A DNA stretch of 64,000 nt, from contig OX637797.1 of NCBI GenBank assembly GCA_951802425.1, positions 4,402,001-4,466,000 of the forward strand, in the 5' to 3' direction. Shown here piece by piece: positions 601 through 61,737 of the stretch. The stretch comes from Clavaria fumosa. Its lineage: Eukaryota > Basidiomycota > Agaricomycetes > Agaricales > Clavariaceae. The position numbers and the translations under genes were made by a program. The notes beneath the pieces are model-generated. The model was not told where the DNA came from, did not search any database, and saw nothing but the letters and a program-made list of their open reading frames with translations. Positions within the stretch are counted from its first letter, which is position 1, and the number at the start of each line of letters is the position of its first letter.

Positions 601-601
601 A

Positions 602-7537: not shown

Positions 7538-7677
7538 ATTGCTGTTGATGGAGAAAGCACAAGAGCCTGTTTGGACCCATGCGCGCCCACACAACACATA
7601 CTTCACAATCAATAAACGATTATTTGGCTTTGTTTGGTTGCAATCGAGGACGGTTGCATTTTCAGCCCCCAGGAGAA

Positions 7678-9464: not shown

Positions 9465-12100
9465 ATGTCCATAAAATTGTGGTACTCCTGTAGAACTATT
9501 TCTTTGGGGTTTGGGGGAGAAGTTTGGGTGGTTGCAGAACTCACGAGTATTGATTCATCATCATAGGGGTTGTTCGCAGGCTGAAAATGGAGGAGACCTA
9601 TAAATTCTCCTTGTTGTTCCAATTGACGAAGCATGGTGGCCTTGACCAATTGAACTTGCAGGGGTTTAGGAGATTTCGGTGTTGAGTTCATGAGGTCAGG
9701 AAGAGGTTTACTTGGGGGTTTCGCATCCAGAAGGGTGAGAGGGATAGTTGCGGAGCAGGCAGTCTGTCCAAAACTAAAGGAGAGGTTAGTCCAGTCAATC
9801 TTGGGGTTCCAGGTTCGCAGCCAGTCAAGCCCTAGAATGACGGGAGTGAGAGGATGGGTCTTGGTGATGAGGAACTTGATGGATTGGATGGTATTGTCAG
9901 GGAATTTTGTATTAGCGAGGATGTAGTGGGTGATATTGGAGCTGGAGGAACTTCTGTCAAAATATTGAAGAGGTAGGGGTTGTGGGAGTGGTATTAGGAG
10001 GTTCAGATGGGTGTTTGCAAGAGTAAAATCGATAAAATTCATTGATGTGCCACAGTCAACAAGAGTATTGAGAGGAATCGAGCCAAAATCTGGGATTTGC
10101 ATTTTTATGAGAAAGGATTGGGAGGACTGGGAAGCAATAGGCATATTAGAAAAGTTGCAAAGAAACTGAGAAGAGGAGGAACTAGTCGCAGCCCATGTGG
10201 GTATGGGGGTTGGTTCATCGTGACTCAGAGTTCCCCCGGAAGCTCCTGAGTCACTTCCTCGTTTAACTCTTCATGCAGATCATCAACATCCTCTTCTACT
10301 TCTTCCTCAACTTCATATGCTTCCTGGAAGTCTTCCTCTCCTTCCTCAAGCGTAAACACTGCTTGTCCGGCTACTTGTCAATCGGGGCATGCTGTGCTGT
10401 AATGTCCGGGCTTCCCACATCTCAAACACAAATTTCCCTGACATTGTTGTTCTTGTTCCTCATCACTGAGGGGAATGTAAGGTGGATTTGGATTCGGCTG
10501 GCAGGGTGGATTAGCAGGTCGCAATGTGGTCATGGGGTTTTCTGTGGCTGGTCTGGGCATCGGAGGATTGTTGCCAGCAGCTGGATAAGGTCGCGACATG
10601 TTCACGAAGTTGTGATTTCCACCTTGTTGAGGAAGGGGGCGATTTCTGCCTTGTTGAGCAGGGGGATGAGGAGCAGGAGGGTTGGCGCGAAAATTGGGTT
10701 CGGTGGGTCTCGCTCTCATACTCCCAGTGCCTCTGATTGATTTGCATTGCCAAATCTTGAAGTTCCTGATACATTGTAGGTCACAGAATGACCTTCATAG
10801 CCTCTTTGATGCACATGGACAGTGAACGATAGAGTTCCAATTGCAGAGCAGCAGAATTCCAGTTGGACTCAAAGGCGAAGGACTCGAAGCATATAATATG
10901 GTTCGAGAACCATTCGTTTTTGCCCATCTGCAACATATGGAGGTTCTGGTCCACCTCGATCTGTGTGTTAACCACTCCAAACATCCCTCCAAACTCACAG
11001 ATGAACCCTTCCCACGAGTGTAAGGCTGGGTGTTTGGGATTGAATTGAAGGAGGGAGGTGTAGTGGCTCTGCATGGTGCCCATGAGGTAAGAGGCTGCAA
11101 ATGTGACCTTCTCATGATCCCCTTGAAAGGTTATGGGTTTCACAAAGAAAGTCATTAGGCATTCCATGACAAAGGGTTTCCATTTACACTGGTTGCAACC
11201 ATTGAATGGCTTGGGGTGCCTAGTGTCAAGCTTAGATTCTCAGGCAGAAGTGTTTTAAGCTGATGGTCTTTTGGAAGGAGGGGCCTGGTAATAGTAGTGG
11301 TGATGGTGGGTACCAGGTGCCTCATCTTGAAGCATGGTAGTGAGGTGTGGAGGCATAGGGGGGACTGGAGGGGCCTGCAGGGCTTCAGCCTGAGACAGGG
11401 GGCAAGATGCTGGTTGCATCTCCATCGGAGGTACTGGTCATGCTTCCAGTTGAGGAATATGGAAGGGTTAGACCGGTATCTCGAGGCAGGGGGCAGGTTG
11501 AAGCATTGCTTCGGTCCCTATAGGGTTACGAGGGAGCGCCCTGCTCAGAGTAGTGGCTGGTTGTGTCCAAGTGGGCCAGCTGCTATGAGGGGTGGTGTAC
11601 CCAGGGATTCTGGAGACAATGGCAGGTCATTCATCAGGCACAGCAGGATTTGCAAAGTTCTGCAGAGATTGGGCCACAACCTGGAAAAGTGGGGCCATAT
11701 CCCAGGGTCCTCTGGCAGGATGAACTGATCTCGGAGGTCGCGAGGGGGTATCCAGGTCAGGGGGAGTGGGGACTCCACAGTCAGTGGTTCCTGGGTACTG
11801 ATGCTGACTCTTGTATAGTTGGTTCTGTGGGTTAGCACAGAATCTGTCCATCAATCATACCAAAGGCTCATAAAGATTTGTGGTCTCTATGAGATACGCC
11901 AGTTCTTTGTCAAGGGTTCCTGCTTCGTACTGGCAGTGAGTATTATTAAGGATTTGGTAAGTACGGTGGCAAGGACAGTCAAAGTGCAGGTAGCCATGCT
12001 GCTCTACAAGGGACTTGGCTTCTTCACACAGGGATGAAGCTTGGCTGGGGTGATTTGGGTGGTTTCCTTGGGTTGTGATTGAACGATGGATGCCGGTCAC
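9465..12100 (-). pseudogene. Ty3/gypsy gag-protease fragment
   Basis: On the minus strand, from high to low coordinates: an N-terminal gag-like segment (12100-11545, broken), a capsid-type Retrotrans_gag region (about 11167-10780, containing YLMGTMQSHYTSLLQF), a proline-rich linker, a CCHC zinc knuckle at about 10420-10380 (CLRCGKPGHYSTAC, CX2CX4HX4C), and a retropepsin from 10144 with LVDCGTSMNFID, where the usual D-S/T-G reads D-C-G-T. The frame changes several times. The protein is cut at 9465 by the LTR at 7678-9464, and no RT follows. The LTR at 12275-13613 lies upstream in the right orientation to be its 5' LTR. Confidence 0.75.
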
Positions 12101-12274
12101 TCTTGAACAGTGGTAGGCGGCTCACAGGTAGCCTCCAAGGCCATTGGAGTAATCGCACGGCTGCCTGTGCGGGTCTGAAAGTGATGAGTGATAGGTTGGG
12201 GAGGAGTGTGACTGGTGGACATAATAAATGGTTCTGGGTGTTGAGTGGTGGGGTGAGGGGGAGACTTGATATTA

Positions 12275-13613
12275 TGTTAGGGCCTGTCCTGTCTTGTAAG
12301 TAACGTTGAAGGTTGACTTGTTGGTGACCAATCCTGGAAACTTGCTAAGACCAATCAACTGTTGAGCACAGTCTTGGTCCTGGAAGGTTGTGGGGATGTC
12401 TGAAAGGTGTAAGAATGGAAATAGACAAATAGGGAGACAGGAGGACATCGCTGGGAAGGTCACGAAGTCAGTAGACAAAGTGTAAAGAAGGAAAAGGACA
12501 AGTTGAGAGAAACAGATAATGCTGAGAAGGTCACGAAGTCGACCAACAAAGTGTAGAAGGAGAAATAGACAATGTTGAAAGAGTCATGGGTAGTTGTGAT
12601 GGTGTCGAGAGATGTGTTGGTGAAGGCAATGACTTTGCCAACCAATGAGAGAACCTATGGGGTTCGAAGAATCAGTACCAAGACAAAAGAAAGGAAATAC
12701 TTAGAGCGTGCAAGTTGTATGAATGCAGAGGATGAATTTAGAAAGAAGCAGAGTGATCTTGGTGTTGTCAAGGTGAGACAAGACCTATCAATCATGGTGG
12801 TTCCAAGCTCAAAGGGTGTAATAGCCTCAAGCTTAAACCAAAGTGCGTCAATATCAAGTCTACAGTATGAGAAGTACATGTGAGACTTATATAAGTGCAT
12901 AGAGAAGAGTATAACAAAAGAGGAAAAGTACAGAGGTCACCAAGTGACAAGACTATAGTAGTATGGGGTATGTTTAGTCGTAAAGTGACTAGGCGCATGT
13001 TCTACTAAGGTCGCAAGGGGTTAAGAAAGCATAGGTAAGGTTGTGACCTGGTTAAATAATCATATATGTAACTATAACTACGGGGGATTCTCAGATCATA
13101 TGTAACATAGTTATAGACAACTGAGGAGAGGAAGGAGAACATAATTTGAAGGGTATATGCAGCTGACCGTCAGTGGCGCGTTTGAGTGTTAAGGTCACAA
13201 GGTCATAAGAGTGGTCATGTGGGTGACGGTAGTGATGCAGGTGACCTTGGGCGGGAGGTCACATGGGTAACGCTGGTAATGTGGGTAACAGTCGTAATGC
13301 TGATAATGTATTGGTGCTGGTAGTGGTAGCGCCGAGAGTGCTGAGCGGCAAGTCACATGCCAGCTGAAGAAGATGTGCAACAGCATGTCACGCATTGAGG
13401 TGGTGGGCCCAGGCAAAGTATACACATGGGTGAGGCAGAGAGAGGTGTCGCGAGTATGGCATGGTGGTCGCGAGTGTTGTGTGAACATGGGGGAGGTTGG
13501 GGAGGCTTCCAGAAGTGTGTAGAGGAGCTTGCGAGGTTGTAGAGGGTTGTCAGGAGGTTCATAGGTGTTTGTAAAGTCAGCTTGGGTAAGGGAAAAATGA
13601 ATGGGTCCTGACA
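12275..13613 (-). mobile_element. Long LTR (family B), probable 5' LTR of the gag fragment
   Basis: The plus strand reads TGTTAGGGCC...GGTCCTGACA (1,339 bp). A clearly related copy at 51572-52958 is a solo LTR with a target duplication, which confirms these termini. Here it sits about 170 bp upstream of the minus-strand gag, as a 5' LTR should. No target duplication is expected because the 3' end of the element is missing. Confidence 0.75.
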
Positions 13614-15014
<1,401 letters not shown>

Positions 15015-16191: not shown

Positions 16192-19100
16192 TCAACTTCT
16201 CCTTGGCCGCTTCACCACCTCAACATAGACATCATGCATGGCACGATTGAGGGCACGTTTGAGACCTGCAGGGCCTAGGTTAAAATAAATAAATAATTCA
16301 AAGGGAATGGGAAACCAACAATGAAACAACTCACCAACTGACTGGTCTTCATCAGCTGGGGGACATTCACTCAATGGGACTACAGAGAATTCACCACCTG
16401 TCCAGTCAAAAGTTTTGACATCATATGGAATGTCTGAGACACCACTCTTCATGTGATTAGTCAGTGGTGTCAACAGATCAGGCCGATGCTTTCTAAAATG
16501 CTCCATCATTTTGTTCTGGAAGGCCAACAACTTGAAAGATGGATTGGCCTTTGGGTGCAGTTCCTTGTACTTGCAGAGTCCCAGAGCCAATTTCAACAGT
16601 GTGAGATTGAAGATTATTCCCCTAGGACTCTGATACTTGTCCCCTGTCTTCAGTCGGTATCTCTTGCAGAAGTCATCTTGGAAGTTACTCCAGGTCTGGA
16701 CCAACTTAGCTCTTTGGGCTGCTTCCAGTTCAGGAATCCCTTCTGCAGTATATGCTCGGGGGTCATAGACCACACTAAGCTCCAATACATTGGCCAGGGT
16801 GACAACATCCAACAAACCAGTCATGGTCAGGACATTGAATGAGTGTGCTGAAGTTGTGAGAGACTGGTTTTGTCCTGGCAAAAAGAAAAAGATGAGACTT
16901 GAAAGCAAAGCAAATAGAAACTCACCCTTTAATTCCGTATACTCTACAATGGCCATTGCCAGCATTCGTCGAAGGAAGATGTCAGCTTCATACTGAAGTG
17001 TGTTGGTAATGTTGTAGAGCAACATCCCAGAGTGGATATGTGCCCAGCAGGTGTCACGAATGGTGGTTGTGGTGAACATGTGGCGGCCCAGGGTTACTGA
17101 GTTCTCAACTGTCACAACTAAGTGAGGTGTGTTTGGTCTCATGAAGCTGAGAGAAAGGATGTGAAAACAAATCTTACTAAATGGAGACATGACTCACAAG
17201 ACTGTCCCAGCCTGGAGAACCACAGCTTCATATTCAAAGCAAGGTGGGACACCACCATCTCTTGTCCACTCAACCCCATACATAGATGCCATGTCACCAT
17301 CTTGCCCCTGTGTCATGCAATCCCTTTTCTGTCTGCCAACCACCCAATACTTTGTGCCTGTAATGCTATCCACAATTGTCCCAAATCCCTTACCATCAAT
17401 ATGAAATGCAGTTGTTGCATTTTTCATGGCTGCTGTGGCCCATATAAGGTGATCTGTGGGGGGGTTGTCCTGTGTAAAACCAGGCAGTCCCCTTGTTTGT
17501 TGCCATGCCACTCCATGAGAGTACAGGTGACTAGAGTATTATTTTTCAGCTTAGAAAGCAAGCAAGGAATCAGCTACATACTGATATGGTAAAGCTTGCC
17601 GATATTCAATACCCAGAGGGAGATCCAACACATTGAGGATCCGACCCATCCCAGTAACTTGGCTTTGTGCATAAAAGTCCACAAGTGTCCCCTGGCTGTG
17701 ACGTAGTCCTTTTCCTGTCATTGGGAGGCTCATATCTGCACTCAATGGTAAGAATCTTGGTTCAAATAAGGAACAATCCACTTACCAACCATGTCCACTG
17801 TTCTGTGAACATTTGCATACATTTTGAGGGTGTTCAGAGTGAATCCCTCATCATGTAATGGTACTTTGAGCACCAAGATATGCCGATGGTGGAATATTTG
17901 CTGGATCTCCTGTGCTGATAGCCTGTTGAACTCCTCAAAGTTACAGACAAAGATGCTGGAGGGGGGAGGACATTTGTGATCATATCCCTGCTCCCAAGCA
18001 GATATGTGATGATGGGGTGGGTGGCCATCAATGTATCTAGCCTCAATACTCTGTTGGAGCTTTCTTATAATTGGATACTCAATCTCAGTCTTTGTAATGT
18101 CCATTAGCATCTAATAATATTTCAAATATAGATGTACTTACTGCATTTTCAGCAGTTTGGAAGTGCACCTCAATGGGCAGTGCATCACGGCATGGTAGAT
18201 AAGCTTGGAAGATGATCTCCTCATCAGACAACTATGGATAACTCGATATATCAGAGGTAAAAAGAGCTATTAATGAACACACACCTTGACCTCATCATCC
18301 ACATTGTCCAGAAGGGTGTTGCGTGTATAATGCTAAAAATTGTTAATGTAAAGAGAAAGCAATTCAGAAAAGTACTTACATCACCCTCCAAGTCAACATA
18401 TATAGGGTATTGCTTTGTCCCCTTGTGTTTAGCCATTCCTTTTTTCAGATGCTGCTGCTCATTTTTAGACTGGTGGTGGGTTTGTGGTTTCCTGGACTGT
18501 GAAGGCTCCTCAACCTCAACCTCAACCTCCCCCTCCTCTCCACTCTCCTCTTGACTGTCCCCTTGACTCTCCTTTTCACTCTCCCCTTTGTGATAGACCT
18601 CATCTTCACCATCCTCATCCTCCATTTCAGCCTCCCCCTTGCCATCCTCATCATTATCCTCAACTTCCATTTCACTGTCAAGACCTTGGTCCTGACCTTG
18701 TTCTGCTATTGGCAATGAAGGTGATTTCTGAAGAGATGGCTCAGGGGATGAAGATGATGTTGTCAAGGGGGAGTTTGACATTGAAGTGGGTGATGAGGGT
18801 AGAGGGAGTCTCACATCCCTAGCAGCTGGGGTCACTGGAATTGCTGGAGTGGTTGGAGCAGATGAAGTTGCTGGAGGTGCTGTTATACCCAGAGCTGCTG
18901 GAGCTGCTGGAGTCATTGGAGCTGTTGGAGTGACTGGAGTAGCTGGAGGTGTAGTCTCTAGAGCAGCTGGGGTTGCTGGAGTGATTGGGGCCACTGGTGT
19001 TGGAGTGGCTGGTGAATCCTCTGTTGGAGCTATTGGTAATTTGGGACCCAGATTGCTACCCTTAGTTCTCACATGCAAGGAAGACAAAGTGAGAACATAC

Positions 19101-21026
19101 CAAGCATAAAACATTCCTTTTGTGCACACTCTTCCTGTGACAGTGGGTGAAACATGTCTATATCTCTATTGGAGTGTGATTAGCCAATATCCTCCCTGAA
19201 AATGCAGACTGACTGTGTCTCCTGTGTCTCTTGTGTCTCCTGAGGCCCTGCCCCTTCTTGGGTCTGCCCATCATCTTGTGATGGTGGGTGAAAAGTGTCC
19301 ACATCCCTATTGATGTGTGATTAGCTTGTAAGCTTGTATCCTCCCTGAAATTGCAGACTGACATCTGCTGTGTCTCTTCTTCCTGGGTCTGCTGCTCATT
19401 CTGTGGTGGTGGGGAAGAAATGTCCATGTCTCTATAGAAGAGTGATTAAATGGCATCCTCCCTGAGAATGCCAACTCACTGTGTCTCCTGTGCCTCTTGT
19501 GCTTCCTGAGGTGCTGCCCCTGTATTCTCATGCATCTCCCCTTCATTAGGAAGAAGTGCAGGTTGAATTTGGGGGAATAATACATCTGGTATATCACCTG
19601 AACCAAAGAAGTGAGTAGATGAACTCTGGATAAATGTGGAACATGCTCACGTGTAACAAACCAATCCTGTAATTGTGGTATGTTGCCTTTGCACTCAAGT
19701 GCTGCTCCCATCTCATGAAGTTCAATAACTTCAGCCTTGTACTCCATCCCACATGATGATCTTAGTAATGCCTTCCACATCATTTTCTCTATAGCCAGTA
19801 GTGAACTTGGCTTTCCACCAAGTGACTGTCCCAACTGGGCCAATGAATCATAAAGATTAACCCATAAAAGGATAATAAAAAGCTTAACTCACCAAAAAGA
19901 GCTGCTCTTTATTGATGGACTGTGAGGCACTATTCCGTGGCACTAAGAGGATGAGAGGGGAGATCGCCAGGGCAAGTTGTGTGTATTGGATTATGTTTCT
20001 TATCACTGCTGCATTGGTAAGACCAGCAGGCAGTGCAACTTGGTGATCTGCAGCCTGCCTGGTTTTCATTGTCAGCAGAAATTCAAGAATATTAAAAACT
20101 AAATGCACATATGAAGGCTGTGGAGTAGGTCACTTTGTGGACCCTGGCTCTTGAGGTATGACTTGACATTGAATTAGTTATGATCTGTGATATCCAAAGT
20201 AACACTCACTGGTCTAAATGCACTGACTGCAAAGGCTACAGAATGCCACTGTTCTAAAACATCATGTGTGGAGCGGTGAATAGCATGCTGGGATGCCTTG
20301 AGCAGGTTTGAAATCGTGGCCTTGAACCTGCGAGGCTCCTCAGCATCCCCCACATCCCCCACATCCACATCCCACACATCCAGGTCCTGGACTGTTGAAG
20401 TGCTTGCCTCTAGCACAGGAAGAGCAGGCAGGGCAGATATGAGAGGAGGGGCAGGAAGGGCAATATTATGTGGTGAATGTACAAGGTGCTGTATAGCCCT
20501 GTTGGCAGTTGATGGGACAATTGAAGTCCATTTCTCAAGATTTTTGAGGATTCTCTCCAGAGTGGGTGAGAGAGTTGGAGGGTGAGAGCGGGGGGTGGGA
20601 TGGAGAGCAGGATGTGGAGGCCAGTCTTGGACCCACAAGAGGACATCAAGGAGTTGGTACATAAGAATAATTTTACCAAAGTAGGCCTGTTCTAATGGTA
20701 TGGGTGTGTGGCTGATTTGGCTAGGGATCAAAATGGCAAGGACATAGGCATTTGCTTTGTCAACTGCCAGGGGTTCATTTTCAACTGTATCTATTTCTTG
20801 TGCAAGCATCTACAGACTATCAAGGACAGTAACTGTGCTGGTAAACCTGAACACTCACCTTGATGAGATTGTGTGCAGGAGAAGGAAGTACAGTTGGGCA
20901 GTGGCTTTCTACCCATGCAAGGAGAGGTCCTGGTTCATGAATGCACCCATTTCGCCATGGGTAAGACTTTAGGACAGAAGAATTGATTCGAATATCACGG
21001 AGGCAGTGGAATTGGGTTTGAGACAT
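16192..21026 (-). CDS. JmjC-type Fe(II)/2-oxoglutarate oxygenase-like protein, left copy
   Basis: A spliced gene with short GT-AG introns. Exon 1 is 21026-20859 (MSQTQFHCLRD), exon 2 20809-20210, exon 3 20117-19893, exon 4 19834-19651; further exons run to the stop at 16192. The JmjC-like core reads AFHIDGKGFGTIVD (H-x-D iron ligands) at about 17400, then FMRPNTPHLVVTVENS at about 17110-17150 (distal His). A Pro/Ala/Thr-rich and then strongly acidic exon (about 19080-18390) ends in YPIYVDLEGD, matching the YYDIEGD exon end of the right copy. The tail ends KRPRRS. Known for the family: JmjC enzymes hydroxylate or demethylate proteins, often histones; the substrate here is unknown. Its first seven exons appear identical to the right copy, while later exons are diverged. 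The start was chosen because the model is open in all exons and is duplicated exactly at 24026. Confidence 0.8.
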
Positions 21027-21084
21027 GACAGTATGTATGAGAGTGCTGGGAGTGTGTTATCAAGATTGGACCAAATGATGATAA

Positions 21085-21103
21085 ACATGAACATTGTTCA
21101 TGT
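21085..21103. promoter_or_regulatory. Short palindrome upstream of the left JmjC gene
   Basis: Two 9-bp arms, ACATGAACA and TGTTCATGT, separated by one base, about 60 bp upstream of the ATG at 21026. The mirror copy is at 23949-23967. A dimer-binding operator is possible; this is inference from symmetry and position only. Confidence 0.35.
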
Positions 21104-21117
21104 ACTTACCTGACCTG

Positions 21118-22176
21118 CTCAAATAGAGTAGCTTTGTATTTGTTTAGGCCTCAAATATATTTGAGGCCTAAACAAATACAAAGCTACTCACCTGACCTGC
21201 TCTATATCTAAAGCCTAAACAAATACAAAGCTACTCACCTGACCTGCTCAATATATTGAAAGCCTAAACAAATACAAAGCCACTCACCTGACCTCATAAC
21301 TGGCTCAAATATATTTGAGGCCTAAACAGATACAAAGCTACTCACCTGACCTCATGACTGGCTCAAATATATTTGAGGCCTAAACAGATACAAAGCTACT
21401 CACCTGACCTCATGACTGGCTCAAATATATTTGAGGCCTAAACAAATACAAAGCTACTCACCTGACCTCATGACTGGCTCAAATATATTTGAGGCCTAAA
21501 CAAATACAAAGCTACTCACCTGACCTCATGACTGGCTCAAATATATTTGAGGCCTAAACAAATACAAAGCTACTCACCTGACCTGCTCAATATATCTAAA
21601 GCCTAAACAGATACAAAGCTACTCACCTGACCTGCTCAATATATTGAAAGCCTAAACAAATACAAAGCCACTCACCTGACCTCATAACTGGCTCAAATAT
21701 ATTTGAGGCCTAAACAGATACAAAGCTACTCACCTGACCTCATGACTGGCTCAAATATATTTGAGGCCTAAACAAATACAAACCTACTCACCTGACCTGC
21801 TCAATATATTTAAAGCCTAAACAAATACAAAGCCACTCACCTGACCTCATGACTGGCTCAAATATATTTGAGGCCTAAACAAATACAAAGCTACTCACCT
21901 GACCTGCTCAACATATTTAAGGCCTAAACACAAAGCTACTCACCTGACCTGCTCAATATATTTAAAGCCTAGACAAATACAAAGCCACTCACCTGACCTC
22001 ATGACTGGCTCAAATATATTTGAGGCCTAAACAGATACAAAGCTACTCACCTGACCTCATGACTGGCTCAAATATATTTGAGGCCTAAACAAATACAAAC
22101 CTACTCACCTGACCTGCTCAATATATTTAAAGCCTAAACAAATACAAAGCCACTCACCTGACCACATCAGTGTCTC
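21118..22176. repeat. Left leader array of 46-58 bp tandem units
   Basis: About 19-20 units. The long form has an exact 58-bp period (e.g. 21421 to 21479) and a shorter form of about 46-50 bp lacks the CATGACTGG part. On the minus strand, the sense of the left gene, each unit carries TCAG/GTGAGT followed about 24 bp later by TTTGTTTAG, i.e. donor- and acceptor-like sequences. Many units also hold the palindromic TCAAATATATTTGA. Confidence 0.92.
21126..21189. repeat. 64-bp perfect palindrome at the outer end of the left array
   Basis: The sequence GAGTAGC...GCTACTC is its own reverse complement over 64 bp, centred between 21157 and 21158. It is made of two array half-units joined head to head. 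Confidence 0.95.
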
Positions 22177-22605
22177 AGACAAAGGGGGCAAGGATTGGGT
22201 CAAATATAGAAATGGCTGGAAGGATCACATGGTTGTTGATAATTGTTAAATACTGTACTACTTGTTGTTGAAGTTCCAACTCATACCCCACCTTTCCCTG
22301 TTATAAATTCTGCATGTGTGCCCTTCATTTATGTGTGTTCTGTCACATTTCATTTTTGGTATCAGCCTTCCCTGCCAACTTGAAGGCAGACCCCAGCAGA
22401 ACATGCTTATTGGGTTGACAAAGAGACCAGCAAATGGATGGCAAACAAATGAAGTCATTCAGCACCTGTGCACATTGATAGGACCAGCAGTAACAGGACA
22501 AGTCTTCATTTCTGTCTTCTCAAGTCCTATTCTCTTCAGTGGCAACAAGAGTCTGCACTGAACATGCATAAAAAGGTAATTTTTTAATTGTAAATAAATG
22601 ACTGG
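22177..22605. other. Unique spacer at the centre of the palindrome
   Basis: 429 bp bounded by CATCAGTGTCTC (22165-22176) and GAGACACTGATG (22606-22617). The longest open frame (22316-22561, plus) has no recognisable domain. No gene is supported. Confidence 0.75.
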
Positions 22606-23945
22606 GAGACACTGATGAGGTCAGGTGAGTGGCTTTGTATTTGTTTAGGCTTTAAATATATTGAGCAGGTCAGGTGAGTAGCTTTGTATTTGTTTAGGCC
22701 TCAAATATATTTGAGCCAGTCATGAGGTCAGGTGAGTAGCTTTGTATTTGTTTAGGCCTTAAATATGTTGAGCAGGTCAGGTGAGTAGCTTTGTATTTGT
22801 TTAGGCCTCAAATATATTTGAGCCAGTCATGAGGTCAGGTGAGTAGCTTTGTATCTGTTTAGGCCTCAAATATATTTGAGCCAGTTATGAGGTCAGGTGA
22901 GTGGCTTTGTATTTGTTTAGGCTTTCAATATATTGAGCAGGTCAGGTGAGTAGCTTTGTATCTGTTTAGGCTTTAGATATATTGAGCAGGTCAGGTGAGT
23001 AGCTTTGTATTTGTTTAGGCCTCAAATATATTTGAGCCAGTCATGAGGTCAGGTGAGTAGCTTTGTATTTGTTTAGGCCTCAAATATATTTGAGCCAGTC
23101 ATGAGGTCAGGTGAGTAGCTTTGTATTTGTTTAGGCCTTAAATATGTTGAGCAGGTCAGGTGAGTAGCTTTGTATTTGTTTAGGCCTCAAATATATTTGA
23201 GCAGGTCAGGTGAGTAGCTTTGTATTTGTTTAGGCCTTAAATATGTTGAGCAGGTCAGGTGAGTAGCTTTGTATTTGTTTAGGCCTCAAATATATTTGAG
23301 CCAGTCATGAGGTCAGGTGAGTAGCTTTGTATCTGTTTAGGCCTCAAATATATTTGAGCCAGTTATGAGGTCAGGTGAGTGGCTTTGTATTTGTTTAGGC
23401 TTTCAATATATTGAGCAGGTCAGGTGAGTAGCTTTGTATCTGTTTAGGCTTTAGATATATTGAGCAGGTCAGGTGAGTAGCTTTGTATTTGTTTAGGCCT
23501 CAAATATATTTGAGCCAGTCATGAGGTCAGGTGAGTAGCTTTGTATTTGTTTAGGCCTCAAATATATTTGAGCCAGTCATGAGGTCAGGTGAGTAGCTTT
23601 GTATTTGTTTAGGCCTCAAATATATTTGAGCCAGTCATGAGGTCAGGTGAGTAGCTTTGTATCTGTTTAGGCCTCAAATATATTTGAGCCAGTCATGAGG
23701 TCAGGTGAGTAGCTTTGTATCTGTTTAGGCCTCAAATATATTTGAGCCAGTTATGAGGTCAGGTGAGTGGCTTTGTATTTGTTTAGGCTTTCAATATATT
23801 GAGCAGGTCAGGTGAGTAGCTTTGTATTTGTTTAGGCTTTAGATATATTGAGCAGGTCAGGTGAGTAGCTTTGTATTTGTTTAGGCCTCAAATATATTTG
23901 AGGCCTAAACAAATACAAAGCTACTCTATTTGAGCAGGTCAGGTA
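22606..23945. repeat. Right leader array of 46-58 bp tandem units
   Basis: About 24 units in inverted orientation to the left array. On the plus strand each unit has CAGGTCAG/GTGAGT, then TTGTTTAG/GCC about 24 bp on, so donor- and acceptor-like motifs again point in the direction of the gene that follows (24026). The last unit has GTAAGT. Units of two lengths are interspersed in a different order and number from the left array, so the arrays evolve in copy number. Confidence 0.92.
23863..23926. repeat. 64-bp perfect palindrome at the outer end of the right array
   Basis: Identical to the palindrome at 21126-21189 and placed exactly at its mirror position. Both array ends are therefore capped by a potential hairpin. 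Confidence 0.95.
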
Positions 23946-23948
23946 AGT

Positions 23949-23967
23949 ACATGAACAATGTTCATGT
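23949..23967. promoter_or_regulatory. Short palindrome upstream of the right JmjC gene
   Basis: Mirror copy of 21085-21103, about 60 bp upstream of the ATG at 24026. Role unknown. Confidence 0.35.
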
Positions 23968-24025
23968 TTATCATCATTTGGTCCAATCTTGATAACACAC
24001 TCCCAGCACTCTCATACATACTGTC

Positions 24026-27000
24026 ATGTCTCAAACCCAATTCCACTGCCTCCGTGATATTCGAATCAATTCTTCTGTCCTAAAGTCTTACCCATGGCGA
24101 AATGGGTGCATTCATGAACCAGGACCTCTCCTTGCATGGGTAGAAAGCCACTGCCCAACTGTACTTCCTTCTCCTGCACACAATCTCATCAAGGTGAGTG
24201 TTCAGGTTTACCAGCACAGTTACTGTCCTTGATAGTCTGTAGATGCTTGCACAAGAAATAGATACAGTTGAAAATGAACCCCTGGCAGTTGACAAAGCAA
24301 ATGCCTATGTCCTTGCCATTTTGATCCCTAGCCAAATCAGCCACACACCCATACCATTAGAACAGGCCTACTTTGGTAAAATTATTCTTATGTACCAACT
24401 CCTTGATGTCCTCTTGTGGGTCCAAGACTGGCCTCCACATCCTGCTCTCCATCCCACCCCCCGCTCTCACCCTCCAACTCTCTCACCCACTCTGGAGAGA
24501 ATCCTCAAAAATCTTGAGAAATGGACTTCAATTGTCCCATCAACTGCCAACAGGGCTATACAGCACCTTGTACATTCACCACATAATATTGCCCTTCCTG
24601 CCCCTCCTCTCATATCTGCCCTGCCTGCTCTTCCTGTGCTAGAGGCAAGCACTTCAACAGTCCAGGACCTGGATGTGTGGGATGTGGATGTGGGGGATGT
24701 GGGGGATGCTGAGGAGCCTCGCAGGTTCAAGGCCACGATTTCAAACCTGCTCAAGGCATCCCAGCATGCTATTCACCGCTCCACACATGATGTTTTAGAA
24801 CAGTGGCATTCTGTAGCCTTTGCAGTCAGTGCATTTAGACCAGTGAGTGTTACTTTGGATATCACAGATCATAACTAATTCAATGTCAAGTCATACCTCA
24901 AGAGCCAGGGTCCACAAAGTGACCTACTCCACAGCCTTCATATGTGCATTTAGTTTTTAATATTCTTGAATTTCTGCTGACAATGAAAACCAGGCAGGCT
25001 GCAGATCACCAAGTTGCACTGCCTGCTGGTCTTACCAATGCAGCAGTGATAAGAAACATAATCCAATACACACAACTTGCCCTGGCGATCTCCCCTCTCA
25101 TCCTCTTAGTGCCACGGAATAGTGCCTCACAGTCCATCAATAAAGAGCAGCTCTTTTTGGTGAGTTAAGCTTTTTATTATCCTTTTATGGGTTAATCTTT
25201 ATGATTCATTGGCCCAGTTGGGACAGTCACTTGGTGGAAAGCCAAGTTCACTACTGGCTATAGAGAAAATGATGTGGAAGGCATTACTAAGATCATCATG
25301 TGGGATGGAGTACAAGGCTGAAGTTATTGAACTTCATGAGATGGGAGCAGCACTTGAGTGCAAAGGCAACATACCACAATTACAGGATTGGTTTGTTACA
25401 CGTGAGCATGTTCCACATTTATCCAGAGTTCATCTACTCACTTCTTTGGTTCAGGTGATATACCAGATGTATTATTCCCCCAAATTCAACCTGCACTTCT
25501 TCCTAATGAAGGGGAGATGCATGAGAATACAGGGGCAGCACCTCAGGAAGCACAAGAGGCACAGGAGACACAGTGAGTTGGCATTCTCAGGGAGGATGCC
25601 ATTTAATCACTCTTCTATAGAGACATGGACATTTCTTCCCCACCACCACAGAATGAGCAGCAGACCCAGGAAGAAGAGACACAGCAGATGTCAGTCTGCA
25701 ATTTCAGGGAGGATACAAGCTTACAAGCTAATCACACATCAATAGGGATGTGGACACTTTTCACCCACCATCACAAGATGATGGGCAGACCCAAGAAGGG
25801 GCAGGGCCTCAGGAGACACAAGAGACACAGGAGACACAGTCAGTCTGCATTTTCAGGGAGGATATTGGCTAATCACACATCAATAGGGATATGGACATTT
25901 CCCACCCACTTCCACAGGACAAGGAGCAGACCCAAGAAGGGGCAGGGCCTAAGGAAACACCAGAAACAGAGGAAACACAGTGAGTGAACATTTTCATGGA
26001 GGACACAAGCTGATCATTCCTCAATAGAGATATTGATTTTCTTCACCCCCTGCCTCTGAATGACCCAAATGCATGGGATATAATACGCAATTTTGCAGCA
26101 GGCAATATCACACTGCCTCAGGCACAGGATCACCTACAGTTATGTCTGGGGTTGCAGTACAATGATAATGACTGGAAGCCCACTTTTGATGTGGTATTTG
26201 AAGCTGAGGAAGACACAGATGCAGCTATCAATGCAGTCAATTCATTGGCTGCAAAATACCTTCCCACTGCACTGCCTTTAACCTTCCTGAAATCTGCCTC
26301 AGCAAGTTCATCCCCAATATCATCTTTACCATCATCTCCAACTCAATCTGTGTACTTGCTTCCCACACCACCAATGTCCAGTCCCACAAGCACTTGGAAA
26401 CATAGGAAATCTGCAAGAAAGTCTGGAGCAGGTCAAAGTAAGGAGTTAGGCAATAGTGTTGATGAAGAGGCCACAATGCTCTTTCCAGTTTACTATGATA
26501 TTGAAGGAGATGTGAGTCTTATTAAATAATGATGGGATATTATCTAACATTTGTTTTGAGCCTGAGGAACCAAATACCCTCATAAATGCCACAGATAACC
26601 CTGGAGTGAGTTTTTCTCCCTGTGACTGCCAATTTCTGCTGATATGCTTTATAGTTGTCACCCCCAGTGAAGATCCAAGCATATCTTCCAGATCCTAAAG
26701 CAGCACCTATCTCTATCCACTTCCAGACATCAAAGACCACTGTGAGTTAACTGCTCATCAGGCATGTACTATTCCAACACTGGTAAATACAGGCTAGCAA
26801 AGAAACTAGGCTGTTGGTGGACATCCATGCCAGTGTTGAAGCTGGATATGTTGATGGTCACCCACCTCACCACCATGCCTCATCTCGATGCATACCATTT
26901 GACTTGCTGAACCCACCAGTGTCAAACATCTTTGTTACAACATACATGGAATTCCTGCAGCTCTCAACTAGGACTCTCCAGGACATCTTCCGGCATCGCC

Positions 27001-28662
27001 ATATTCTTGTTCTCAACACACCTCTCCAAGATGAGGGGTTCTCAATTTCAACATTGAGGAACTATGCAAATATCACAAGAACAAGAAGCATGATAGGTAT
27101 GGTATGACTAATGCCATGGCCTAAATATGCTTACAAATTATACACAGATCAGTCCATCGACAGCACCAACAGTGAGCGACACTGCCATGGCACCCTGCTT
27201 GACTTCTTCCATCACAGCCAAATGCCCAACAATGGACACATCCTCAATGTTCTTGACATACCACTTGGGTTGGAGTATCGACATTGCATACCCTACCAGT
27301 GAGTGTTCAATAAATCTGCACTGCCTGTGCTGAGACTTAATTTCCCTCACAAGTCACCTGAACTCCCACAGTATTGCATGGCAACAAACAAGAGGCACTC
27401 ATGGTTTTTCTCATGCCAATCCGCCCACCGATCACCTTATATGGGCTACAGCTGCCATGAAAAATGCAATGAGCTGGATTCACATTGATGCAAATGGTCT
27501 TGCCACTGCCATTGATGCTATCACTGGGACCAAATATTGGGTTGTTTGTCACCACCGCCACAATATGGAGTCCTGCTCAGCTGGGGATATGTCATCACCC
27601 CTTGCCTTTTCCACCACTGAGGTGGATGATGCAGCTACCTCATGTTTTGAGCATGAGGCTGTTATCATCCAGCCAGGCACCGTCTTGTGGGTGTACTTTT
27701 TACATTTTATTCAATTTGCTAAATGTGAAATAGCTTCATGCGACCAAATACCCCACATTATGTGCTCACAGTTGACAACTCAATTGTGCTGGGTCGTCAT
27801 ATGTATTGCACCTCAACTATTCGTGACTCATGCTGGGGCCACATCCACACTGGGGTGCTCTTACATGGTGTGACAAATACCAACCATTCAGAAACTGAGG
27901 TATTGCTGTGGCGCATCTTGGCAATGGCAATTGATGAATATACCTCTCATGAATATATCCAAGATGGTCTGCCCCTAACTATTCTCCTTTCCTCTCCCCA
28001 TCTGATGCAAATTGACAGTGGGTGATCATTCAATAGACCCAACCACTGCTCAAGGCCTTTTGGACCTCATTGCACTTGGAAATGTGCTTGAGCTATGCTG
28101 GACATATGACTTGGAGATCAAGGATCAAACAAGTTTGGAAGTAGGTGCACTTCAAAACATGATGAAGGCCCAGCGCACAGCAATTTTGAAGAAGTACATG
28201 GACTTCCAGCAGTCCTTCAGCAAATCACAATGGCTCAAGATTGGAGAAGAGTTGGTGGATCCCCTATCTGCTCTATTCAACCCATCTATTGTTCACCTTG
28301 CTGTGACGATTTGCAAGTACAAGGAGGATGAAGACTCTTCCAACCCTGGTCTCTCACAGAGTTGTCTCCATGCAAGGATGGACAAGCACTTCTGCAAGCA
28401 TCATCCTAACCTCCTATTTCATTTTCGAGCAGAGATGGGCAAAGAGTTGAAAGATCTTCCCTATTGCAAAACCTTTGAGTGGACTGGGCCAGAATTTGTT
28501 GTCATCAAGAAAACTGTGAATGATACCCAAGGCACCCGGAAGCGAATTCATTCAGAAAGTGGTGAGCATGTCCCAATCACTCCCATCAGGCATTATTTAA
28601 TATTTTCAGATGAGGAAAACAGCAAGCGGGCAAGGAGAATAGCTCTCACAGCACAGATCTAG
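24026..28662 (+). CDS. JmjC-type Fe(II)/2-oxoglutarate oxygenase-like protein, right copy
   Basis: About 16 exons give a protein of roughly 1,250 aa. Exons that join in frame: 24026-24193, 24243-24842, 24935-25159, 25218-25401, 25455-25572, 25621-25689, 25746-25838, 25887-25979, 26028-26511, 26561-26605, 26655-26741, 26793-27096, then four more to the stop at 28662. The catalytic-type core reads SWIHIDANGLATAIDAITG (H-x-D, near 27480), then FMRPNTPHYVLTVDNS (distal His, near 27750) and GRHMYCTSTIRDSCWGH. The part before it contains DGHPPHHH and FRHRHILVLNTPLQDEG, conserved in the left copy. The C-terminal exon (about 28018-28662) ends in a basic KRARR segment. Exons 6-8 are tandem duplicates. 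A chromatin or protein hydroxylase role is inferred from the family; the substrate is unknown. No frame break was seen. Confidence 0.83.
25621..26027 (+). repeat. Tandem exon-intron duplication (141-bp unit)
   Basis: Exons start at 25621, 25746, 25887 and 26028. The two 93-bp exons plus their 48-bp introns make exact 141-bp periods; the first unit is a shorter variant (69-bp exon, 56-bp intron). Every junction is phase 2, so units can be gained or lost without changing frame. The exons encode DxDxxHP...QTQEGAGP...ET repeats, and the introns end TCAATAG or similar. Confidence 0.85.
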
Positions 28663-30894
28663 CTGTTTTACATGCCAGTCAGCAGTCCTGTACCTGGTTG
28701 TCATCGAGTATATAATACAGTTATATCTGACTTGAATATTCAAATTATGTAATACCAACTGTCCAGGCATGGGCTCATGCACACCTCATGGCCTCAGTGC
28801 TGCCTCTGAGACTTGAACATTCTTGAACCACTACTTATGACTGACAACTCACAGTTTCTATCCAGCATGCTCTTCAAGCTTTGGATACAACTTTTGGCTG
28901 CTATTGAAGGTGTAGTACACTCAAAGATGGGTGAAGCTGAACAATCATTTTTCCAACAAATCCAGGATCATGATGAAGCCTAGCAGAGGCATGAAGAAGA
29001 GGCATGCGCTGGCATTCGCTGAGTCCTGCTGCGCCAACAGCAGTGCCTGCATAAACGAGTGGTACAGCATGGGCATGTGGTGCTGGGTCACCGCCACGAC
29101 CAAGAGCACATCTGCAACCTCTCGCACGAGCCGCAGCGTCTGCGCCTCGCCCTCCCAGAATGCACACAGCTTGCACTAGCACATCTTCAGCAGGCTCAGC
29201 ACTGCATATGGTGTGAACACGATGTGTGTGTCTGGAGAATGCCTGAGACCCAAGCCTGTCCTGGATGATCAGCACACATGCTGTTCACGTGCTCAGAGGT
29301 TCCAGATGACGCAGGCAGGCTTCAGGTGAGCTGCTCCTTATCATACATCAATACATTTTGATAGAAAGCAATAAATATTCATATCTGCATACTTTGGAAC
29401 CTACCTGACCTGCAGAAGGTTCCTTTGTCCTTTGTTTTGGTGTTGATGTTGAGCAGAAGGGGTTACCAAATGGCCATGCTGCTCATTACCACTTGCGCTT
29501 TTGATGCACATCCAAATGCATGGCACATGCACACAACTTGTATGCCACTTGAAGGCTGTGTGGTTGCTGATGAGGCCTGATTAGACAATGGATAAGTCAC
29601 ACAGGTGGTTGAGGGAAAGTGATGGCTGTCATGCCTGAACACCATAGCAGACAATTTTGATACCAAAATATTATATTATATTATATGTCACAAGTGGTCA
29701 CACAAGGCACAATAACAGAACAACTACAAGAACAGCTACAAGAACAGCACACATTTTCACATAAAAGAACAGTTAGATCTGTGCCATGTCTATAAGATCC
29801 ATTCCCTACAGTGTAATACTCTTCCTTTGACCAAGGATTCTCCTGAAGTGCATTTTGGCTGCTGTGTGTATGGCTCATACTTGTTACAGTCATGCTACCA
29901 GATATTATACCAGATATTATGTGCAAATGCTAAAATTTTTATACTGGGTTGTCTCAAAAGTTGCCCTGCAGTGAGACAAAGTGTGAGACATAAGGTAATC
30001 ACACAAACCTAGTAGCTGAAAGACTGATAATAGTGGTTGAAGCCTTGACAATAGTAGGCAGCCATTATGGAGGTATGAGGTTGGAGTTAGTGATGATCTT
30101 GTTGATGCCACCAATTCACATATAGTCCTAGCTGATATTGGAGATTGACCATAATATTCAAGCAGGCTGATATTCCCAAAACCCTATCAATGATGTCATC
30201 ACAGGTCAGCCAACATGAAGGTCAGGATACAGGATTTGGCACACTGGGATCAGGCTGATTTGATAATGCAACACCAATACATAGGTCTTGGCCAATGTTC
30301 AAGCCAGTAGATTGTGCAGATTTAATCTTGAGCCAACATTATATCTTTGTTCCATGCATCTCTGGTAGCTATGGTTTTATCAACAGGTGCCAATACTACA
30401 ATCTTGATTGGGCCATAAAGAAAAGTTCACCACCATGTGACTTCAAATTGTTTTTGACTCACCTGAGTTCTTGGCCATTAATTTGCCTCACTTCCATTGA
30501 ACTCTGCTACCCAACCCTGTTGCACAAGGTGAGTTGCTACTAATCTCTTGTGCACCCTTGAGCTATGATTTGGCCAAGGGTTGACACTACAGCCCTTGTC
30601 CTCACTAGTTGCAAGGCTGTTTGACTCAGAGTGAGGACACAATAGATTGCAAAACATGGTGATATATTGAGGAGTCACAAGAGTGTAATACAGGAGCACT
30701 GCAGAGGGCATAAGGGTTATGTACCAGGAGGAAGAGCCCAGAGTAAATGCATGTGCTAGAGTGAAGCAAGACTCTAGGACTAGCACACAGTCATGGATGC
30801 ATGACTGTTGGCAAGTGTTGATGTCTTTCTCATGCATCATGGTTGGGTGACCATGACTCTCAGTTGGTGACTGGCACAACACTGGTGGAAATTG
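28663..30894. other. Intergenic region, no gene supported
   Basis: A GC-richer island at about 28945-29270 is open on the minus strand over roughly 100 codons with one stop (HHMPMLYHSFMQALLLAQQD). It could be a remnant of an unidentified gene. Around 29733-29795 lies a copy of the repeat seen at 15990-16045. The rest is AT-rich without recognisable features. Confidence 0.5.
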
Positions 30895-31137
30895 CCCATC
30901 CCTACATTGTGTGTGGGAAATTGCAGGGGTGGTCATGTGTCCCTACATTGTGTGTGGGAAATTGCAGGGGTGGTCATGTGTCCCTACATGGTGTGTGGGA
31001 AATTGCAGGGGTGGTCATGTGTCCCTACATGGTGTGTGGGAAATTGCAGGGGTGGTCATGTGTCCCTACATGGTGTGTGGAAAATTGCAGGGGTGGTCAT
31101 GTGTCCCTACATGGTGCGTGGAAAATTGCAGGGGTGG
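30895..31137. repeat. 41-bp minisatellite, six copies
   Basis: The unit containing CCCTACATGGTGTGTGG and TTGCAGGGGTGGTCATGTGT repeats with an exact 41-bp period (30903, 30944, 30985, 31026, 31067, 31108). It ends about 50 bp before the start codon of the next gene. The frames open across it are repeat artefacts. Confidence 0.95.
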
Positions 31138-31187
31138 GTATAAATTTCCATATTTGCATGGAATGTTGATGCTAATTTGTGTGATGC

Positions 31188-34100
31188 ATGTTTGACCTCA
31201 CAAAGCTTGCCACATCATTGCTGCCATTGCCACACACAACCCCATCCTCACAGGCTTCATCTGCTAAGGGGACTATGGTGAGTCACCCAATTATCCAAGA
31301 TTCAACATAGTCTAATGACAGAACACAGGCCAGCCCCAATCGTTACAAAGATCTGTTTGCAAATGCTCACACTGAGACCCAACGCCATCTTGCCAGCACT
31401 TTTGTGGGATATTACTCTATTGACTTGCTTGAGTCACCTTACTCTTTCACCTGGGGCACTTACAATGACCGGCCACTGAATGATGAGAAGGTTGATGAAC
31501 TTGTTCAATGCTATTTCACAGAAGGCCTGCTTCACTGCGAACGTGACAGTGCTCTGCCAGTTGGGTTGAAGCCTGAATGGATTGATGATGTATCACCACT
31601 TGCAGACATTGATGGATGCACCATTGAAGAAGTACCCAACTTGCAACTCAATCAACTTGGCATCGATGCAGTGAACAAGGGTGAAGCCGAAATTTTTGGA
31701 GGGAACCACCGCCGACATGCCCTGAAAAAGTTCATTGCTGAACTCGAAGAAAAGCTGAACATCCTACGGGCAGACTTGGAAAACACGAAGGAGGCTGACA
31801 AATTGAAACAAGACATTACGACACTTGAGGAGTCTATTCAGAAGGCAAAGCGTTGGGCAATTGCAGTTTGGGATATAGGTAATGTCTATTATTCACAAAT
31901 TTTTGACTGATTTAAATTAAATATTCAAAGGAAAACTCTTCATGTTGCCAGACAAAGGTCTGGCCTGCATGCGTCTCCTAGCTCGCAACCAGGCAAAATT
32001 TGTTTTTGGTGAAACCCCTGAGGAACGTATTGTTGAAAAGGTTCGGGATATCATCATGGCTGATGATGAGGATGAGAAGGTCTATCAAGCAGCTGTGGAT
32101 GATGGCCTTGATGTCATTCGTAGCACCGAGAAAAAGGATCAAGCTATCACTTCAATCCGTCGGTGGGCAACCGATACATCCAGCGTATACTCACGAATCT
32201 TTGCAACCAATGATGGGATTGCATTTCTGACAATGATACTATCACTTGGCAAACACTTCCGTGATGCTCCTTTCCTCAAAATAAGCTGGATGGCAGACAC
32301 TTTATCTGGCACCCATGGCGGTGTGAGTATCCAGGCTCATTTGATTTTATTATTGTCTTTTCATTTTGTTTTAGCTCCTTAGTGCAATAGTCAATATGGC
32401 AGCCAGCAATCTATTTTGCATGGTTGGTGATGGTGAATTTCCTTCACTCCAGGAAGTTCAGACTCTCCTTGCACAATGGGCAGACTGGGACCCTACCATT
32501 GAAAACCCTGACCTCAAAGCTGCAATAACCAAAGTTGAGAAGCAGGCAGTTGGAGTGGCCAATACTCAGAAAATGCGTGCCAGATGGCATGGACCACTTC
32601 TGGACAGGATTGATGATGCGTTCAGGGATCACCTATTGGGCTGCCCACCCAACATGTGGAGCCAGGACTGGACAACTGCCTTTCGGCTTTATGCCCAAGA
32701 TGTAGTGCGTCTTTGCCAAGAGGAAACACGCAGAAGACATGCAGCAAAGCTTGATTTTTGCAGGACATTTCCAGCACGTGTTGCTTGGAAGCTTTGCTAC
32801 CCAGGGTCCTCAAGATACGCACAACTGCCAATTCCCACCACATCATTTATTGTCTGGATAGATCGGTCACTCAAACGTGTAGGCACAGCACTTGAGGAAG
32901 TGAGTTCATTATTCCACACTCTTAATTGGCTGCCACTTCATATTGTGGGTTTGACTTGGGATCATGGCCCTGCACTTTGTTGGCCTATGAAGTGTGGTTT
33001 GCCTTGGGGTCATGACCCTGCACTTCATAGGCCAACAAGGTGTGGGCCCAAGTAAAACCCACTATGGAGTGCAGACCTGACCTATACTAACATCTGCATC
33101 ACATCTACATCATTGACTCCACTTTTGCAGATCTTATTCTGGATTGATCCCATAGCAAGTTACTCAGCAATTTTTGCAAAAGTCACCAAATCTCGCGATG
33201 TGTCTTCCTCTATTCTTGCTGCACTTGCTAAGGATCCACTCATCCAAGAACATAATGAGGCTCATGACTTTGTGTGTTTTCTTGAATTATTTATCAACTT
33301 AACCATTTTGATTCTGCCATGTTAGTTTATCAAGACCATCTTGCAGCACCTATCCACCCATATGATTGACATGAGCTATGATGTCTCTGCTGCTTGGTCA
33401 AAGTTACCTATCTCCCACCCGAAGTCTGGCGCCGAGCTTGAAGCTATATTTCCTACAGGCGTGCTACATGCCAAACGACGTGGCGACTCAGTGAAGGATA
33501 TCCACCCCTACTTGGACAAGCTGGGCTTGAAACCCAGTGGTGTGTTTGACACTGTTGATCAACTATTGGAGTTTGTCAAGAGGAAGTCAGACTGGTCAAT
33601 TGAAGATCGTGTTGATGCAGACTTTACAAAGCGGGCCCTTGTTGCAACTGCCTTTCCAATTGACCCCTCTGACTCTCATGCCCTCCGCCGTGACTATGGA
33701 CGAGTTGTGCTCTCAGCAATGCTTGAAAGCTACCTTGCTTTACACTACCGCCCAGACATACTCAAGGGTGCTGCAGGACATGTCCGACAATCCCTCAACA
33801 ATATTTTTTCCTCAGTTTCCTGTGGACATAATGTCTTGGTCAGCCCAGGGAAATTTAAGGCTGTAAAGGAATGGAAATGGGTTGATGGTTTGGTAGTGCA
33901 AGATGTACTGAACACGATTACACCCTCTCAACAGCGTCAAGATGCCCGACAAACTGCTGACAAATTCCACTCTCACCAAGCTGCAGTCCAGAAATTCATC
34001 TCAAGTATTGAGAGGTCTGAAGTTGCTAAGCTGAGGGGTGGGGTGAAAGGTAGGGGAGCCATTGCAAGTGAGGTTGCCATTGCCATTGATGGTCTCATCA

Positions 34101-61706: not shown

Positions 61707-61737
61707 GTATTATCAGACTGACCACTCTGCGCTCACA

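Follow-up and report, generated by a model that had tools for sequence, protein, structure and literature searches.

Divergent pairs of paralogues in Caenorhabditis form inverted repeats that are maintained, with arms alike within a genome, and duplication tends to involve both members of a pair at once (Zhao et al. 2007, PMC1803023). In the C. briggsae pair CBG13231/CBG13232, the first 297 nt are 100% identical and the overall identity is 59.6% (PMC1803023). The flip/flop (FF) region of Saccharomyces chromosome XIV, located near the centromere, comprises 24 kb between 4.2-kb repeats; these inverted repeats are homogenized within strains and species, the interior inverts recurrently, and conversion with occasional crossover is the proposed cause (Salzberg et al. 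2022, PMC9731477). For the human Y palindrome P6, arm-to-arm conversion is reported to be GC-biased and inversions to be rare, three having been detected (Hallast et al. 2013, PMC3723533).

The locus presented here lies in a 64,000-nucleotide stretch of Clavaria fumosa DNA, referred to as the window. It consists of two divergent genes, L and R, placed on either side of a centre of ~2.7 kb (Table 1). The locus is very probably a two-gene palindrome whose inner part is in concerted evolution through arm-to-arm recombination. The mechanism would be of a known kind, by analogy with the C. briggsae pairs, the Saccharomyces flip/flop and the human Y palindromes; the many copies, both orientations and the splice-donor arrays make this locus a variant of it. 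L and R present the same half-gene identity pattern as CBG13231/CBG13232, yet the coding reach is a few hundred nt in Caenorhabditis versus 1394 bases in seven exons, together with their introns, in Clavaria. Unlike in Caenorhabditis, there are 11 pairs, the spacer is found in both orientations and donor arrays are present. Homogenized inverted repeats and an inverting centre are shared with FF, which, however, is a single region with genes wholly inside its repeats, whereas here the repeats end within the genes. Arm-to-arm conversion plus some inversions is also the pattern of P6, although inversions are rare there and opposite centres occur at about half of the 11 loci here. A literature search of titles and abstract openings, with many subscription journals outside its coverage, returned no account of this locus or of a palindrome in a fungus that stops within a gene pair.

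Table 1. Features of the palindromic gene pair, in window coordinates.
Feature	Position	Strand	Basis
Gene R, 17 exons, 1239 aa	24026-28662	+	gene model
Gene L, 17 exons, 1293 aa	21026-16192	-	gene model
Gene L, 3' portion: tail of intron 7 plus exons 8-17, of which 12-15 contain a JmjC-like domain	16192-19173	-	gene model
Left arm: gene L exons 1-7, introns, 163 bases of 5' flank	19174-21189	-	alignment and gene model
64-base perfect palindrome, left arm inner edge	21126-21189	.	sequence
Left array of 18 units (45-58 bases each), with consensus splice donors facing gene L	21190-22177	-	
Asymmetric spacer of 428 bases, the orientation of which with respect to L and R varies among loci	22178-22605	.	
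Right array of 23 units, with consensus splice donors facing gene R	22606-23862	+	
64-base perfect palindrome, right arm inner edge	23863-23926	.	verified in sequence
Right arm: gene R exons 1-7, introns, 163 bases of 5' flank	23863-25878	+	alignment and gene model
Repeated small exons, period 141; arm identity stops inside	25723-26033	+	repeat and identity step
Gene R, 3' portion: tail of intron 7 plus exons 8-17, of which 12-15 contain a JmjC-like domain	25879-28662	+	gene model

The sequence CAGGTGAGT occurs 19 times on the left side (21023-22177) and 24 times on the right side (22606-24030). A search of the window against Rfam yielded no match.

Including that of the window, 11 inverted pairs were found in the genome, which made a test between loci possible. 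Loci are labeled by contig of the same genome (C1, C3, C4 and so on), and C1b is a diverged copy on C1, at 4.95 Mb. Full-length arm copies at ~100% identity number 21, arranged as ten inverted pairs and one single arm, and the eleventh pair is at 98%. The 3' part of gene L (query 16192-19132) has ten full copies in the genome, and that of gene R (query 26028-28662) has 11. Most of the inverted pairs sit in near-identical duplicated blocks close to contig ends, and the flanks differ little between loci.

In the window, the left arm and the reverse complement of the right arm are identical at 2016 of 2016 bases; beyond these limits the exact match extends by 0 bases on the outer side and by 13 on the inner side. 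Each arm runs from upstream of the start codon into intron 7, stopping 8 bases short of the end of that intron, and residues 1-466 are identical in the two proteins. The original prediction of mirrored, identical first seven exons, introns and 5' flanks was thus borne out. Its description of the remaining exons as diverged yet homologous also holds, given that 276 of 572 aligned residues are identical in the 3' parts, where dN is 0.50 and dS is 4.1 (saturated). When the arms were aligned and identity was binned, a step was obtained rather than a gradual decay. In 200-base bins outward from 23863, bins 1-10 present 100% identity, and the bins beyond the arm edge present 46, 41, 31, 34, 50, 53, 55, 66, 53, 63, 51, 47, 45 and 39%, i.e., identity falls from 100% to 46% across adjoining bins and stays at 31-66% thereafter. 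The arms of C1b and C14 have their edge at the same place as in the window. Inward, the repeat extends through the arrays, yielding an inverted repeat (19133-22177 / 22877-25919) with 98.04% identity. At C12, gene L carries an additional in-frame exon of 93 bases at this edge, equivalent to one more small-exon unit, the start of which resembles R exon 8 and the end exon 7.

Although near-identical arms make a wrong join possible, as assembled the 428-base spacer has one orientation relative to the two genes at six loci and the opposite at five, with the flanks unchanged. The arrays, whose lengths likewise rest on the assembly, vary among loci (15 + 23 units at C1, 17 + 29 at C13, and 22 + 14 at C12) and mostly move together with the spacer. 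Among nine pairs of loci with opposite orientations, the arrays fit the spacer end better than the flank in six, tie in two, and fit it worse in one, C13-C12, where the flank fits better. A unit variant unique to C7 is located at the arm-side end of both C7 arrays. Given that both orientations are found and that the arrays are mostly linked to the spacer, these results point to crossovers between arms besides conversion. If so, an inversion would swap the upstream arrays between L and R. The centre could even be an invertible regulatory module, in which flips reassign the upstream splice-donor arrays and the spacer between two oxygenase-like genes while conversion equalizes their N-halves. We consider this unlikely; if true, it would be a eukaryotic promoter-swap switch that works through ordinary homologous recombination and is repeated at many chromosome ends.

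Arms were compared base by base in eight of the 11 pairs (C5, C4 at 0.12 Mb, and C6 were left out), four of which are identical and four of which have one to three differing sites. The C1b arms agree with each other at 1973 of 1974 bases and with the window at 1943 of 1974. Relative to the window, they have 31 substitutions in common and one unshared, as well as two common deletions of 32 and 10 bases, the longer of which removes part of the 64-base palindrome (23863-23926). Under a simple assumption, ~0.2 shared sites would be expected in C1b without exchange. The C14 arms have two variants in common against the window and one site that differs between them. The C13 and C7 arm pairs have three differing sites each, and the R arms of both loci carry a common variant that their L arms are without, which indicates that homogenization is incomplete. 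Because the C1b arms match each other yet share variants against the window, the arms are homogenized within loci. That arms of the same locus share variants absent at other loci supports the earlier claim of conversion or crossover limited to the inner palindrome, as do the two orientations that the centre takes between the flanking gene halves. GC-biased conversion, such as that described for P6, should leave an AT-to-GC excess, which is not clear in the arms: AT-to-GC versus GC-to-AT changes are 13 versus 3 in the main lineage, with six of the 13 inside 13 bases, and 2 versus 5 in the C1b lineage.

It is quite improbable that this pattern is an artefact of assembly or polishing, with reads of different arms mixed and centres joined in arbitrary orientation. 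Arms of ~3 kb that are near-identical in many copies of an assembled genome would favour such errors, but mixing could mask a few differences and not generate the substitutions common to the C1b arms. Moreover, some arms do differ (C13 and C7) and array lengths vary by locus, so the assembly did not collapse the copies. Artefact is a greater concern for the orientation result than for the arm result.

Still less probable is a single recent event, in which one inverted duplication placed the 5' half before another paralogue, with no ongoing conversion. The complete identity of the window arms and the small differences between flanks agree with such an event, and suggest that the main group is young. 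However, C1b presents the same palindrome with the same edge, and its shared variants can be explained only by exchange that postdates the C1b split or by a palindrome that originated twice independently. In addition, a degenerate copy on C10, with an arm 93% identical, already has this N-half joined to an L-type 3' half. A single duplication without later exchange is rejected on the evidence of the C1b arms and the C10 relic, as the original prediction had held.

That the palindrome is a self-inserting mobile element carrying the two genes along is barely credible: there are many copies, a single arm and spacer adjoin a Helitron-type ORF on C3, and weaker relatives of the 3' half (~31-37%) are dispersed in the genome, but the loci remain similar well beyond the palindrome edges, over nearly all of the 30 kb compared and in the same order at C13, C11, C7 and C1, and R is the gene nearer the contig end at all 8 main-group loci for which this could be determined, which argues for duplicated chromosome ends rather than insertions.

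The C3 fragment is, judging from its sequence, a rearranged piece adjoining the Helitron ORF; a retrocopy, with the spacer directly before the ATG, was rejected given that introns are retained. The spacer may derive from the tail (3' end) of a gene for a TET/JBP-like oxygenase: the C3 copy runs upstream into a frame that, by eye, resembles such a gene. A Pfam search returned no match at E 0.5.

Gene L looks chimeric, with mixed ancestry, because its 3'-half paralogues on C11 (2241-2246 kb) and C5 (178-188 kb), at 85-86% DNA identity and known as search matches only, have N-halves with only 43% residue identity to the arm protein. The original N-half of L has apparently been lost, and, with these two paralogues as the basis, the likeliest donor of its 5' half would be R. 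In the original prediction, the arrangement could diversify the enzyme while control stays shared; this putative function takes no account of the apparent loss of the L N-half or of the swap of upstream arrays by inversion.

The original assignment of the genes to the JmjC group is plausible. Residues HxD, GxKxW and a distal H line up across three sequences, namely R, L and a relative on C1, and we take HxD, K and the distal H to be the JmjC metal and co-substrate residues. The scores, however, are below the Pfam curated (gathering) cut-off of 24 bits: PF02373 matches the C1 relative with 19.1 bits (positions 4-114 of 114) and gene L with 13.8 bits, and R is not among the matches. The gene L region also weakly matches JmjC_2. 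In the shared N-half, Pfam yields one weak presenilin match (E 0.26) and nothing else. A PDB sequence search with the R domain returned no match, and the predicted structure has a mean pLDDT of 32.7, too low to judge a double-stranded beta-helix fold.

Under concerted evolution of the inner palindrome, the starting point would be divergent paralogues R and L that differed along their whole length. One of them, most probably R, would have overwritten the 5' half of the other with its own, producing the L chimera and long inverted arms, which would have recombined with each other ever since. Non-crossover repair would keep exons 1-7 and the 5' flank alike, and crossovers would invert the centre, such that the spacer and arrays switch sides. 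Strand exchange would halt where L and R are too different, in the repeated small exons, giving the sharp step at exon 7/8, and exchange between chromosome ends would have spread the entire block. The 64-base palindromes or the arrays may help initiate breaks.

With 11 replicate palindromes in one genome, the locus is a natural experiment on the limits of gene conversion. The replicates offer a nearly fixed edge, few arm differences, both orientations, and a repeated-exon edge that can shift by a unit, and sequencing alone could measure tract length, the share of crossovers and the similarity required for strand exchange. The locus may also illustrate a route to chimeric genes by conversion, in which one paralogue seemingly took the N-terminal half of the other while the diverged 3' halves were kept.

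The window lies at 4.402-4.466 Mb on the 4.598-Mb contig C4 (OX637797.1), and the genome searched comprises 48.8 Mb in 17 contigs. Window features are presented in the table below. When the arms, i.e., the mirror-image 5' halves of genes L and R, were compared base by base, the mirror match was exact at 2016 of 2016 bases, beginning 163 bases 5' of the start codon and stopping 8 bases before the end of intron 7. Beyond this edge, L and R present a DNA identity of 31-66% in 200-base bins, and their 3' parts are identical at 276 of 572 aligned residues (48%). The arm identity is real, and these values bear out the original prediction of identical 5' halves and diverged 3' halves, with identity ending in a step.

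Features in the window (positions of the whole stretch)
Feature	Position	Strand	Description
Gene L	21026-16192	minus	Gene model: 17 exons, one open frame, 1293 residues
Gene R	24026-28662	plus	Gene model: 17 exons, one open frame, 1239 residues
Arms	19174-21189, 23863-25878		Mirror-image 5' halves
Tandem arrays	21190-22177 (left), 22606-23862 (right)		Inward continuation of the repeat; 45-58-base units, 18 left, 23 right
Spacer	22178-22605		Asymmetric 428-base centre between the arrays
TCTCCT array	14146-14480		Pure, 335 bases
Two minisatellites	50674-53876		Periods 44-88, flanking a segment 75% like 12275-13614
Long open frames	30481-41528	plus	No clear Pfam match in three stretches tried
Open frame	61705-62889		CCHC zinc-knuckle-like motif, of the kind present in retroelement gag proteins

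The identity step is located within a run of small repeated exons of period 141, and its position in C14 and in C1b (a diverged palindrome locus on contig C1) is that of the window. In contig C12, L has one additional 93-base exon at the edge, with phase kept and a 48-base intron, which starts like R exon 8 and ends like exon 7; we read this as a tract or unequal exchange reaching one repeat further.

Judged from sequence, L and R are labelled here as JmjC-like. The motif side of the originally proposed JmjC assignment stands, as HxD, GxKxW and the distal H line up in L, R and a hand-spliced relative (C1:3269580-3270980), but the Pfam scores stay below cut-off. Neither full protein has a Pfam match reaching cut-off: the L core scores 13.8 bits against PF02373 and the C1 relative 19.1 bits (E 0.0018, positions 4-114 of 114), with a cut-off of 24, while R matches cupin-like models only, with a top score of 20.2 bits (cut-off 21.1). 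A sequence search of the R domain against the PDB returned no match, and the structure model, with a mean pLDDT of 32.7, was unusable.

The full-length arm occurs at about 100% identity in 21 copies, of which 20 form ten inverted pairs and one (C10) is unpaired; an eleventh inverted pair, C1b (C1:4.945-4.954 Mb), is at 98%, and shorter or older arm pieces are found on C2, C3 and C10. There are 11 full copies of the R 3' half (26028-28662), with 2338 of its 2635 bases present at C1b and the remainder 17 kb off, and 10 of the L 3' half (16192-19132), besides one split copy in C12 and paralogues at 85-86% in C5 and C11. In the other loci compared, R is intact in five of five and L in five of five, the C12 L, split by an insert, being excluded. 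The loci on C13, C11, C7 and C1 resemble the window across nearly all of the 30 kb compared, in long alignments of 98.6-99.9%, lowest where they run into arrays. Over three flank blocks of 4.5-5 kb each, six loci of the main (near-identical) group differ at 0-4 positions per block, and C2 at 8-19 (two blocks compared). Flanks this similar would be expected if blocks were exchanged between chromosome ends. At ten of eleven places checked, the distance between the arms and the nearer contig end is 17-337 kb, the eleventh being C14, a 161-kb contig. R faces the nearer end at all eight main-group loci where its side could be told (C13, C12, C11, C7, C4, C1, C4 at 0.12 Mb, and C5, judged from low coordinates; C14, C6, C10 and C2 were left out of the count), and C1b has R on the opposite side.

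Two copies are broken: that at C2:71875 ends at window position 24941, where it meets sequence with a 98-99% likeness to window 1-4960, and that from C10:3311159 onwards breaks inside the array and is followed by a tandem repeat of about 0.9 kb.

Base-by-base comparison covered 17 of the 23 arms, leaving out those of C5, C4 at 0.12 Mb and C6. Among the eight of eleven pairs compared, four are identical (window, C12, C11 and C1), while the arms differ at one site in C14 and C1b and at three sites in C13 and C7. The C1b arms agree with each other at 1973 of 1974 aligned positions, yet one of them agrees with the window at 1943 of 1974: both have 31 substitutions, a 32-base deletion and a 10-base deletion in common against the window, and one substitution is present in only one arm. 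Given that about 0.2 shared sites would be expected, under a simple assumption, had there been no exchange after the C1b split, the C1b arms, the main-group arms or both were homogenised after the lineages separated. Both C14 arms have two variants in common against the window, and a unit variant confined to C7 occupies the end next to the arm in both C7 arrays. Homogenisation is imperfect, with one R-arm variant common to C13 and C7 missing from their L arms. When changes are polarised by the older arm copies (relics) on C3 and C10, the main lineage presents 13 AT-to-GC, 3 GC-to-AT and 3 neutral changes, six of the 13 within 13 bases, and the C1b lineage 2 AT-to-GC and 5 GC-to-AT. The variants shared by the C1b arms support gene conversion or crossover between the arms, and our verdict on the mechanism is that original proposal, plus inversion.

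Read from L to R, and depending on the assembly, the spacer is oriented as in the window at six loci (window, C14, C13, C7, C6 and C1b) and reversed at five (C12, C11, C5, C4 at 0.12 Mb and C1). Comparing units at six loci, the arrays are mostly linked to their spacer end: at the a end the array begins AB or AN at six of six loci, and at the b end AFK at five of six, the exception being C12. The window has its 23-unit b array next to R, and C1 has a b array identical to it, unit for unit, next to L; between these two loci, with opposite spacer orientations, about 14 kb of flanking sequence shows 2 differences. Over nine opposite-orientation pairs, end linkage is better in six, tied in two and worse in one. 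Hence, the exchange points lie mostly outside those stretches of the arrays that adjoin the spacer.

The C11 paralogue, known here, like that of C5, from search matches alone, matches the arm protein in its N-half at 43% identity across residues 9-259 (C11:2241049-2241822, with weaker pieces to 2242353), and adjoining this is a 3' half with 85% DNA identity to L, to about window 18821. The C5 paralogue repeats this pattern in pieces scattered over 178-188 kb. In the simplest reading, these paralogues would retain an old L-type N-half, and the palindromic L would have an R-type one. Given that a copy at C10:410-412 kb is already chimeric (arm 980 of 1051 bases, L part 93-95%), the takeover of the L N-half predates arm identity.

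At C3:3446132-3453000, a Helitron-type frame (Helitron_like_N, E 2.7e-54) adjoins copies of the arm (about 87% like the window) and the spacer (94%), the latter immediately preceding the ATG, with no array in between. Upstream of this spacer copy, C3:3450650-3450840 holds a frame which looks to us like the final part of a 2-oxoglutarate oxygenase gene; it had no Pfam match, and the window spacer starts with its last codons.

The array units bear a consensus splice-donor motif, with 24 CAGGTGAGT over 22606-24030 on the right and 19 over 21023-22177 on the left, all pointing toward the gene next to them; the opposite strand has none. Elsewhere, CAGGTRAGT occurs once in 49 kb of the window (1-15000 and 30001-64000), counting the two strands together. 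The 29-base unit core has 423 exact genome matches (224 forward, 199 reverse), lying, among the matches listed, at three palindrome loci (C1, C1b and C4 at 0.12 Mb). Leader exons that have been repeated may make up the arrays.

A divergent gene pair of C. briggsae, reported by Zhao et al. (2007, PMC1803023), has 100% identity over its first 297 nt and an overall identity of 59.6%; these authors list conversion as a mechanism but favour selection on structure. Conversion with recurrent inversion has been proposed in Saccharomyces by Salzberg et al. (2022, PMC9731477), and conversion with rare inversion is shown for a Y palindrome by Hallast et al. (2013, PMC3723533). The L/R palindrome works like these systems, yet is set apart from them by the depth to which homogenisation extends into the genes, by the presence of 11 pairs within a single genome, by centre orientations divided almost equally among the loci, and by donor arrays that switch sides.
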